Both the position numbers and the translations under genes were made by a program. A DNA stretch of 38,854 nucleotides from a virus. The notes below the pieces were generated by a model that was given only the letters and a program-made list of their open reading frames with translations, was not told the DNA's origin and did not search any database. Positions 2,671 to 9,102 of the stretch are shown here, piece by piece (within the stretch, counting starts at the first letter, position 1; each line of letters starts with the position of its first letter). The stretch spans positions 1-38,854 of the IMG/VR virus record IMGVR_UViG_3300042988_000801. The stretch is one strand, 5' to 3'.

Positions 2671-2868
2671 ATGAACAAAACAGATTTTAAACTTGCGCGA
2701 AAAGAAGTGAGAGAGATCGATTTCCAGATCGCTCGTTTGAGCGAAAAACTCGGGCAAAAATTATCTCTTGTAGACCGCGCCCATATGGAAGCTGCGATTG
2801 ATTATTATCTTAATCGCCGAAGGATAATCGAAAGTGACGAGGTGTTCAGTCGCAAGACTGGCGTTTGA
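2671..2868 (+). CDS. Small helical early protein, unknown
   Basis: The 65-aa product is strongly charged and predicted helical throughout (DFKLARKEVREIDFQIARLSEKLGQ), probably a coiled coil. It has one of the best ribosome-binding sites in the window (AAAGGAGG shortly before ATG 2671), suggesting high expression. It ends the erf operon; its stop codon abuts the structured segment that follows. Confidence 0.7.
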   Translation: MNKTDFKLARKEVREIDFQIARLSEKLGQKLSLVDRAHMEAAIDYYLNRRRIIESDEVFSRKTGV

Positions 2869-3122
2869 ATTGAACCGGCGGGGCGTGTCCTTAAAACGAG
2901 CGAGTCCTGCTCTGCTTCGTCGGTTCAATTGAGACGTTTGGCGGTGAGAGTTGAGCGAATTGAATCGTAGCTACGGCGATGCTCAAGACCTGCCAGTGTC
3001 TCAACTAGTTCGATTGAATGAATTCTGCGCAGGCTCTGTCGCCGAAAGAAACTTGTTATCCCGGCCACGGGGGCCAAGTTCGGCGATGGATCCCCTCCTG
3101 CCCAGAATTCATTGAGTCGAAC
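2868..3122 (+). ncRNA. Candidate structured RNA or att-linked folded region, no gene
   Basis: No convincing gene lies here, yet nearly the whole stretch self-pairs. Hairpin A: 2868-2877 pairs perfectly with 2921-2930 (AATTGAACCG/CGGTTCAATT), with an inner 9-bp helix 2896-2904/2910-2920 carrying two single-base bulges. Hairpin B: 2929-2944 with 2989-3004, one bulge, and inside it TTGAGC/GCTCAA (2951-2956/2981-2986) and ATCG/CGAT. Hairpin C: 3008-3033 with 3097-3122, 26 positions with only two mismatches and one G-T. Inside C are TCGCCG/CGGCGA (3039/3081), AACTTG/CAAGTT (3050/3075) and a GGCC hairpin. No U-run follows, so these are not terminators. ATTGAA-containing motifs recur in both orientations, so protein binding at DNA level (Xis/Int) is an alternative. 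The strand is arbitrary; + is the direction of flanking genes. Confidence 0.5.
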
Positions 3123-3141
3123 ATCATGAGTGGAGGACAGC

Positions 3142-3318
3142 GTGGGGGCTGAATTCTTATCAACAGAAGAAATTGCAAAGCGAAAAGGTTTCTCAGTCAC
3201 TTTCATCAAAAAAGCGGCAAAACAGTTTGGGTTGCCACATTACAAATTCGGACGCCTGTTGAAGTTCAAAGAATCTGACTTCGATGAGTGGGCAAAGCAA
3301 CGCCAGCAGGTCGGCTAA
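3142..3318 (+). CDS. Excisionase-like small HTH protein
   Basis: The 58-aa product matches the MerR/excisionase-type winged helix (HTH_17-like): 'LSTEEIAKRKGFSVTFIKKAAKQFGLPHYKFGRLLKFKESDFDEWAKQ' has the helix-turn-helix, the wing strand with the basic 'KFGRLLKF', and the closing helix with 'DFDEW'. GTG 3142 has GGAGG six bases upstream; GTG 3130 would place that site inside the gene. The start region lies directly after the folded segment, and the gene precedes the integrase by 17 bases. It could direct excision or regulate int; the two roles often coincide. Confidence 0.75.
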   Translation: MGAEFLSTEEIAKRKGFSVTFIKKAAKQFGLPHYKFGRLLKFKESDFDEWAKQRQQVG

Positions 3319-3335
3319 CAAAAGCGAGACTTGCT

Positions 3336-4568
3336 ATGAGTGAAGCTAAACGAAATCCATTACAGGAACTTGTGCGCCTCGAAAAATACGAGGGGTATTA
3401 CATTTGTCCTGCGAATGGAAGAATCACCTATCGCAAGTCTCACAATGGCGTTCACCACAAGATCGCGACCGGGGTGGTCGGCAAGATTGATCTCAAGACC
3501 GGCAAGGTCGATGGCATCGCGAAGGCACGTGAAATTGTCGAGATCGAGCTTGAGAAGCGGCGGACTGGAAAGACTGAATCGGCGATCAAGCGGGAGCGCA
3601 GAGGCGTAACGAATCCGCTCCTTGAGGACCTTTACAAAGAACTCTCAGAATTAAAAACTGAAGGCAAAGAGCAAGCCACCAAAGACAACTATGCCAAAGC
3701 CTGGCGCAACGGAATGGCGTTTTATTGGCGTGGGAAGACCGCCGCCGATTTTAAGACTGAGAACATGCCAGCCTACAAAAAGGCGTATCTTGAGCACAAG
3801 GCGAGTCGCCTTTTCGAAAAGACTTTCGACTTCATGAAGATGTTTGGACGCTTCTTGGTTGAGCGAAAGCATATTGCCGAGCTTCCTGACTTTAAAGAAC
3901 TCGGAGACCTCGACGAAATCATCCGAAAAAATAAGCGTTATGTGAAAGCCGGTCGTGTCTATACATCAGCTGAGCAAAGAGCAATGCTGGGCGCATGGGA
4001 GCACTTTTTAACGACTCAAGTCGGAGGCACCACGACGCGCCATAAAAGACTCTTGGCAGCGCGCGCGCGACTTGGGTTGAGGCTTGGTCTGTTGTGTGGC
4101 CTTCGCATGAATGAGTTCCTAATGCTTGAACGTGAGAAGGTCGATCTCGATAAGGCGGTCATGCACGTATGGTCTTTCAAGAACCACAAGTGGCGGGAAG
4201 TGCCGCTTGTCTCTGAAGTAGTCGAGGCTTTCAAGTACCAGTTTGAGGCCAATGCACATCTCAAGTCGAAATTCATTTTCCCGATGCCGTCGGATCCGAG
4301 CCGGTATCTTTCGGACCAGGTTTTTGATAAGACGTGGTACAAAGTCAGGGACATTGCCGGTGTCATTCCTCGGCGCAAATACGATGCTCGGTTTCACGAC
4401 CTGAGAAAGACGTTTGCGACTATGACGGCGGAGGAAGGTTGGCCCTGGAAAGTGGCCTGCGAGATCCTCGACATGTCGCTCGAAGAATATGAGAAGACCT
4501 ACGCCAACAAGGTCAGTCTCGAATCAAAATCAGCATTCATGAATAGACAATTCGGAGGCCGGAAGTAA
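3336..4568 (+). CDS. int: Tyrosine-recombinase integrase
   Basis: The 410-aa product would catalyse attP x attB recombination. An N-terminal arm-type DNA-binding region (about 15-65) and core-binding domain (about 95-190) precede the catalytic domain (about 205-400). Catalytic residues by pattern: R257 in LCGLRMNEF, a beta-hairpin Lys near K285 in KNHKWREVP, H354 and R357 in FHDLRKTFA, and nucleophile Y389 in EKTYANK. At the usual His/Trp position, nine residues before the Tyr, the sequence is ILDM, giving Met380 instead of the LGH-type His. I chose ATG 3336; GTG 3288 lies inside the previous gene. The attP-like region follows directly. Confidence 0.92.
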   Translation: MSEAKRNPLQELVRLEKYEGYYICPANGRITYRKSHNGVHHKIATGVVGKIDLKTGKVDGIAKAREIVEIELEKRRTGKTESAIKRERRGVTNPLLEDLYKELSELKTEGKEQATKDNYAKAWRNGMAFYWRGKTAADFKTENMPAYKKAYLEHKASRLFEKTFDFMKMFGRFLVERKHIAELPDFKELGDLDEIIRKNKRYVKAGRVYTSAEQRAMLGAWEHFLTTQVGGTTTRHKRLLAARARLGLRLGLLCGLRMNEFLMLEREKVDLDKAVMHVWSFKNHKWREVPLVSEVVEAFKYQFEANAHLKSKFIFPMPSDPSRYLSDQVFDKTWYKVRDIAGVIPRRKYDARFHDLRKTFATMTAEEGWPWKVACEILDMSLEEYEKTYANKVSLESKSAFMNRQFGGRK

Positions 4569-4584: not shown

Positions 4585-4861
4585 TTTTTGTCTATTCTTT
4601 GTCTACCAAAAAGGGAAGAATCCGGTAACAAGCGTATTTTACGGAGGAAAACAAAACCACTCGCACAGTCCCTCTACCACCTCCACTCCTGTCAGTTGTG
4701 TACAAACCTTCAAATCTAACCTGAGAGAAATGGGCCGAAAAAACGGCCTTTTGCCTAGGCAGTTCAGCCGTTTTGGGTTCAGGCGCGGACATGTCAGTCT
4801 AGACACAAACACCAGCCTTCCGGCGCCGAGTTTTTGTCTACTGATTTGTCTACTAGACAAA
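4585..4861. other. Probable attP region with TTTGTCTA repeats
   Basis: This stretch lies in the 423-base gene-free gap between int and the replication genes. It has two similar repeat pairs: TTTTTGTCTA plus TTTGTCTA at 4585-4605, and TTTTTGTCTA plus TTTGTCTA at 4831-4852. The second pair ends in a perfect palindrome TTTGTCTA-C-TAGACAAA (4845-4861), and GTCTAGAC sits at 4797-4804. Such spaced repeats flanking a core, next to int, are typical of integrase arm sites. I could not identify the crossover core. The open frame across this region (4568-4954) is low in coding character and I do not call it. Confidence 0.55.
4732..4753 (+). terminator. Rho-independent terminator after int
   Basis: GGCCG (4733-4737), loop of six A, CGGCC (4744-4748), then TTTT. 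The A-rich loop and short flanking T-run make a compact terminator for the int transcript about 165 bases past its stop. Confidence 0.65.
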
Positions 4862-8793: not shown

Positions 8794-8857
8794 AGCTTTT
8801 GTAATCGCGACGATGTTTGCATGTGTAGGATTCATAACCTGGGTGAGCTTGAAATGA
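8780..8857 (+). CDS. 25-aa single-pass membrane microprotein
   Basis: ATG 8780 sits inside the end of the previous gene, and its TGA is overlapped by the next ATG (ATGA at 8854). The peptide MNWPEAFVIATMFACVGFIT and five further residues is essentially one transmembrane helix with a Lys at the C-terminus. Its position in a string of coupled genes, plus clean overlaps on both sides, supports translation. It could act on the host envelope, for example as a superinfection or toxin-like peptide, but this is speculation. Confidence 0.5.
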   Translation: MNWPEAFVIATMFACVGFITWVSLK

Positions 8858-9102
8858 AGCTTAAAAACTTCGTAAGAAAACGCCGCAAGGAACTGGGCCT
8901 ATTGATGAAGGAAATTTCATATCCGTTGGGCTATAGTAGCAATCAATCGGTATGGAATTGGGAACATGGACGCGCTCCAATTCCATATTATATGTTTAGG
9001 CAATTAGCTAAATTGTTAGATGTGAGACTCGAAACTCTCATCGATTTAGCCGTGGAAGATTATCGCGACGAATTTACGGCAAACGTGCGGGGTGCAAGAT
9101 GA
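8854..9102 (+). CDS. XRE-type HTH protein
   Basis: The 82-aa product, ATG 8854 coupled by ATGA, contains a HTH: 'VRKRRKELGLLMKEISYPLGYSSNQSVWNWEHGRAPIP' then 'FRQLAKLLDVRLETLIDLAVEDY'. The helix-3 region 'NQSVWNWEHG' is the usual XRE recognition pattern. It is the second HTH protein of the middle operon. The upstream in-frame start at 8821 lies inside the microprotein gene and is not favoured. Confidence 0.75.
   Translation: MKLKNFVRKRRKELGLLMKEISYPLGYSSNQSVWNWEHGRAPIPYYMFRQLAKLLDVRLETLIDLAVEDYRDEFTANVRGAR

Follow-up and report, generated by a model that had tools for sequence, protein, structure and literature searches.

The DNA analyzed here (the window) is a viral record of 38,854 nucleotides from IMG/VR (IMGVR_UViG_3300042988_000801) with a terminase of the epsilon15 type, 61% identical to that of epsilon15. 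Both ends of the contig (1–133 and 38721–38854) carry the 7-mer GACACTC in 19 perfect tandem copies, a terminal repeat which suggests either that the map is circular or that the assembly produced an artefact at its ends. At the left end of the window a repressor gene on the minus strand is followed, on the plus strand, by a cro-like gene, erf, small ORFs, a gene-free stretch, xis and int. The small ORF before the gene-free stretch (2671–2868, plus strand, 65 amino acids) is without family match. The excisionase gene is of the xis-like HTH_17 type (3142–3318, plus strand) and has a GTG start at 3142 preceded by the Shine-Dalgarno sequence GGAGGA (3132–3137). The tyrosine integrase gene follows on the same strand (3336–4568, ATG at 3336).

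The start codon of int is enclosed by a separate mRNA hairpin on the plus strand (3324–3441) with a perfect 9-bp base, GAGACUUGC at 3326–3334 pairing with GCAAGUCUC at 3433–3441 (-46.8 kcal/mol, z -6.5). This hairpin is not conserved, the int start of the relative phage introduced below being without such a fold (z -0.75). Downstream of int, a gap of ~230 bp lies between two pairs of TTTGTCTA(C) repeats, with left copies at 4587 and 4598, right copies at 4833 and 4845, and an inverted copy at 4853–4861. Paired repeats bracketing a gap are the usual layout of arm-type sites around attP, and 4587–4861 is a candidate attP. Integrase arm-type repeats flanking a core were looked for in the gene-free stretch and are not there; the arm-like pairs lie at 4587–4607 and 4833–4861. 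The hairpins of the gene-free stretch were for this reason rejected as attP, the candidate site being elsewhere.

The gene-free stretch (2868–3122) had been described in the initial annotation as devoid of any credible gene and as folding into three hairpins, one with a 26-position stem broken by two mismatches. Both descriptions hold. Its four ORFs gave no family match in PHROG or Pfam, and for the one of 94 amino acids the relative phage offers no equivalent. The plus strand folds at -120.4 kcal/mol versus -81.7 ± 5.1 for shuffled sequences (z -7.6), a value reached by none of 200 shuffles; the fold of the minus strand is weaker (z -4.6). When all 120-nt segments of the contig were scanned, 3001–3120 on the plus strand ranked first, at -5.6 versus -3.7 for the runner-up.

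The three hairpins, all on the plus strand, do not contribute equally. Hairpin 1, here called W1 (2860–2938), has TTGAA at 2865–2869, TTGAG at 2929–2933, a long stem containing G-U pairs and one inner hairpin; folded alone it gives about -40 kcal/mol (z -6.0). It begins in the last codons of the preceding 65-amino-acid ORF and spans its stop codon, so that the structure starts slightly earlier than the 2868 originally proposed. Hairpin 3, or W3 (3008–3122), has TTGAA at 3014–3018 and TTGAG at 3112–3116, and contains nested inner helices. Its arms (3008–3033 and 3097–3122) are 88% complementary over 26 positions, with a G.G and a C.C mismatch, and at about -63 kcal/mol (z -8.4) it is the strongest structure of the contig. 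Its 3' end lies ~10 nt ahead of the xis Shine-Dalgarno sequence. The middle hairpin, W2 (2932–3003, GAGACG...GUCUC), does not rise above chance when folded alone (z 0.0 to -1.15) and lies outside the element family described below, so that the three hairpins are a remarkable fold as regards the first and third only. Bases 2932–2938 can pair either in W2 or in the outer stem belonging to W1; a bistable switch between the two was considered and rejected, since W2 is no better than chance.

Two further statements of the initial annotation were borne out, the absence of U-runs and the lack of a recognizable RNA family. No intrinsic terminator, that is, a GC-rich stem with a U-run, was called after W1 or W3, nor was any terminator called in the stretch. 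The Rfam search of the window gave no match at the gathering score; the best sub-threshold match, to a miRNA hairpin model, scored 24 bits versus the 54 required and is at chance level.

Integrase searches, single and aligned, across viral and genome collections, phages and plasmids, returned one related phage only. This relative, a 37-kb viral-collection record (L004), has an integrase 52% identical to that of the window and is the only phage found to share this int and xis; cro, erf and an HTH gene are shared as well. Comparison of the two revealed a relation that had been missed at the outset: hairpins 1 and 3 belong together as copies of a single element, of which the relative has three more, G0 (L004 4332–4408), G1 (L004 4637–4729) and G2 (L004 5413–5493), each on the coding strand and each with the same hairpin plan. 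These sit in the interval that separates the small early genes from xis, matching the window copies in early region and in strand, and in both phages the element region is surrounded by homologous cro, erf, xis and int. In the relative, two copies precede a 102-amino-acid gene and one precedes an HTH gene; none adjoins xis directly.

The common plan of the five members is 5'-TTGAA, a variable stem with a variable interior, and TTGAG-3'. A G.G mismatch is invariant, the two motifs pairing in every copy as U.G, U-A, G.G, A-U and A-U. Outside this base stands G-N/N'-C, where N-N' is C-G in three copies, U-A in one and A-U in another, and the hairpin ends read GCTTGAA..CTTGAGGC, GTTTGAA..TTGAGAC or GATTGAA..TTGAGTC. 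Inside it lies a stem of ~10 or more pairs that differs among W1, W3, G0 and G1/G2. The upper stem of G0 is entirely different (CCTGCCATC/GATGGCAGG) over an unchanged TTGAA/TTGAG base. G1 and G2 have their arms in common, and the ends of W1 are unlike those of W3. The distance between the element ends varies from 69 to 103 nt, and copies that are alike at their ends have unrelated interiors. The ATTGAA motifs, originally read as possible Xis/Int binding sites, are explained at least as well by the invariant TTGAA and TTGAG that face each other at the foot of the hairpin.

Two side observations concern sequences in and around the copies of the relative. At L004 5380–5479, inside and beside G2, the sequence matches a tRNA over the full length but below threshold (18 bits versus 29), with a perfect T-arm (GGGTTCGAATCCC); perhaps this is a tRNA relic or a tRNA fragment captured in a hairpin interior. 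A tRNA identity was not accepted for this interior, the match being below threshold and ARAGORN calling no tRNA. Between two hairpin copies, at L004 5039–5329, a short gene made of 12-nt repeats encodes a Gly-Asn-Gly-Tyr/Asp repeat protein.

The stems pair at 9–10 of 10 positions in each of the five copies. When the copies are aligned, both sides have changed in 14 of the 20 stem pairs and 91% of cells are standard pairs, versus 30–52% in slid controls. The copies, from two genomes, were recognized partly by their complementarity, so that this count is supportive and not independent proof of structure. The independent part of the structural support is the number of copies: dinucleotide shuffles of both genomes contained a mean of 0.013 such elements versus the five observed.

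Further members were sought in several ways. The Erf alignment search gave 80 loci, none with a further element outside the relative phage; that with xis gave one locus, which is unrelated; and that with the terminase led to epsilon15-like phages, at 54 loci in viral and 10 in genome collections, all without the element. In a pattern scan for TTGAANTGAA..TTCANTTGAG the stems pair poorly in all matches beyond the two phages, and in one for GCTTGAA..CTTGAGGCGG, carrying the same end motif, none among the at least 120 loci listed reached a stem paired at 8 of 10 positions. As a dispersed repeat the element was found neither in the viral-collection scans nor, apart from one chance match, in 398 Pseudomonadota genomes. 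The same genomes, searched for the host, held no relative of the integrase, an empty answer that is weak evidence there. The literature search met no description of a TTGAA/TTGAG element under the terms tried. An unrelated Erf phage (L355 1921–2015) has a long TTGAA/TTGAA hairpin in a divergent intergenic gap, with a stem paired at 10 of 10 positions (z -5.4) and GTGCCGGTGAACA repeats inside; it was not taken as a member of the family, being in an unrelated phage and near chance given the amount of sequence scanned.

All five copies lie on the coding strand and each is more stable there than on the complement, the energies for plus and minus strand being -40.7/-22.0, -64.5/-54.0, -48.5/-27.5, -48.5/-40.9 and -39.0/-29.2 kcal/mol. 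The difference is due to G-U pairs, of which the five stems together contain 26. RNA would be expected to show such a preference; duplex DNA sites and cruciforms would not. RNA is therefore favoured, five of five being a small sample in which G1 and G2 have common arms. A single-strand DNA energy model gives z -6.4 on each strand; since it is satisfied on both, a role for folded DNA also has to be considered.

Taken together, the evidence points to a real structured element that is undescribed, and one that most likely acts at the level of mRNA. The explanation we favour, to which we would give about even confidence, is that W1 and W3 both represent an intercistronic RNA element that recurs in this phage lineage and acts in cis on the processing or stability of the early-operon mRNA or on the expression of the next genes. 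Because of the gene order, we assume that the element lies in a single early operon (cro, erf, small genes, xis and int) and would be transcribed within it. The base, 5'-G-N-UUGAA ... UUGAG-N'-C-3', would be held fixed, its G.G mismatch lying between the U-A/U.G and the A-U pairs, and presumably serves as a recognition or boundary feature, whereas the upper stem and interior would be free to change provided that pairing is kept. Among processing, stability and expression, we infer that the element is most likely a processing or stability structure, offering double-stranded RNA of the type on which RNase III acts; at 26 positions with two mismatches, the stem would be long enough for such a site. 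Lambda sib and the intercistronic RNase III sites of T7 are likewise long bulged hairpins in phage polycistronic mRNA. The likeness is one of general form and not of compared sequence, and sib, which acts on int, lies downstream of that gene whereas the element here is upstream. Processing or stabilization of this kind would set the amount of xis/int message obtained from the early transcript. A near alternative within the same explanation is that a stable non-coding RNA might be processed and released from that transcript.

The original suggestion of a phage non-coding RNA controlling xis and int thus stands in part. The RNA level is favoured by the strand preference, by stems that vary yet remain paired and by the position in the early operon, but the element is a dispersed repeat and not one RNA dedicated to these genes; as the copies of the relative precede the 102-amino-acid and HTH genes and not xis directly, a dedicated xis/int switch is not supported. 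Rather unlikely is a broader proposal in which these copies would represent a structured phage RNA of a new class. It would be a modular hairpin with interchangeable interiors, one of them tRNA-like, and with a fixed UUGAA/UUGAG G.G-mismatch base that a protein of the phage or of the host recognizes; it would occupy several early intergenic gaps and govern the expression of the excision and integration genes.

One might instead see folded or duplex DNA, the TTGAA/TTGAG ends being sites for a DNA-binding protein or attC-like recombinase sites on extruded hairpins, and the copies marking module boundaries in the exchange of early genes. In the relative, two copies with identical 17- and 20-nt ends do flank a two-gene cassette, the HTH gene beside one copy has a homolog elsewhere in the window (8821–9102), a tyrosine recombinase gene is adjacent, and the DNA folds well on both strands as noted. 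Integron attC sites are likewise long imperfect hairpins (~60–140 nt) in which short ends are conserved while the interior is free to vary, and they too have a tyrosine recombinase nearby; they need RYYYAAC/GTTRRRY boxes, whereas the hairpins here end in TTGAA/TTGAG, contain a G.G mismatch and lack any AAC/GTT triplet. Nor would a duplex-DNA site need variable stems that stay paired, or be expected to show the G-U-dependent strand preference of all five copies. The variable end-to-end distance also speaks against a DNA element. With a candidate attP and its arm-like repeats downstream of int, the single-strand recombination site of the initial annotation is not borne out, and a DNA element of any of these kinds is in our judgement improbable. 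Non-autonomous mobile hairpins of the REP/MITE type that landed in intergenic gaps would account for several intergenic copies per genome and for the direct TTGA repeats that flank the inverted repeats. Ends that are alike around unrelated interiors, ends that differ between W1 and W3, the placing of all copies on one strand and the failure to find them dispersed in viral or Pseudomonadota genomes nevertheless weaken this idea, which had also been raised earlier; we consider it quite doubtful.

Processive antitermination by put-like RNA, in which nascent hairpins bind RNA polymerase and permit read-through from the early promoter to int, has a similarly small probability. Paired hairpins in an early operon upstream of xis/int agree with it, and the put RNAs of HK022 are of similar size (~70 nt), consist of two stem-loops located downstream of early promoters, and need no protein (PMC9378689). 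However, put RNAs are fixed stem-loops, similar to one another in sequence, that contact polymerase through specific bases, whereas the copies here are mid-operon with unrelated interiors, and no plus-strand terminator was called between W3 and the int start. Among the early-operon RNAs compared whose mechanism is understood, put, which comes from a temperate phage and has its hairpins in tandem, stands nearest, but position and interior diversity do not fit. It is less probable still that we are dealing with chance palindromes in a non-coding gap or with a decayed gene. Hairpins are common in phage gaps, and the middle one is no better than chance, but neither the fold of the whole stretch nor five copies in place of a fraction of one is ordinary, and stems as well paired as theirs are absent from the other end-motif loci listed.

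The closest analog found is the ESAS of cluster K mycobacteriophages, described in 2011, an imperfect 17-bp inverted repeat with a spacer of mostly 4–13 bp, located beside a 13-bp SAS; it is lineage-specific, present in several copies per genome upstream of a subset of genes, and of unknown function (PMC3203893), its role still to be verified in a 2025 paper (PMC12699233). Both are repeated inverted repeats with a variable spacer, found in several copies per phage before a subset of genes. The repeat sequence of ESAS is conserved, whereas here TTGAA/TTGAG alone is constant and the stem varies freely; the interiors here comprise tens of bases with inner hairpins; and the 13-bp SAS (GGGATAGGAGCCC) has in the window a single match with three mismatches, below chance. 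Given these differences in repeat consensus, spacer and SAS, the TTGAA/TTGAG element is comparably placed but not a member of ESAS.

Dispersed inverted-repeat elements of temperate phages such as ESAS had a role still unproven in 2025 (PMC12699233). In the present element the fixed base motif, covarying stems and swapped interiors separate structure from sequence, so that a few mutants of the arms, made in a single phage, could reveal at which level, RNA or DNA, elements of this kind work and whether they exert any control over xis and int.
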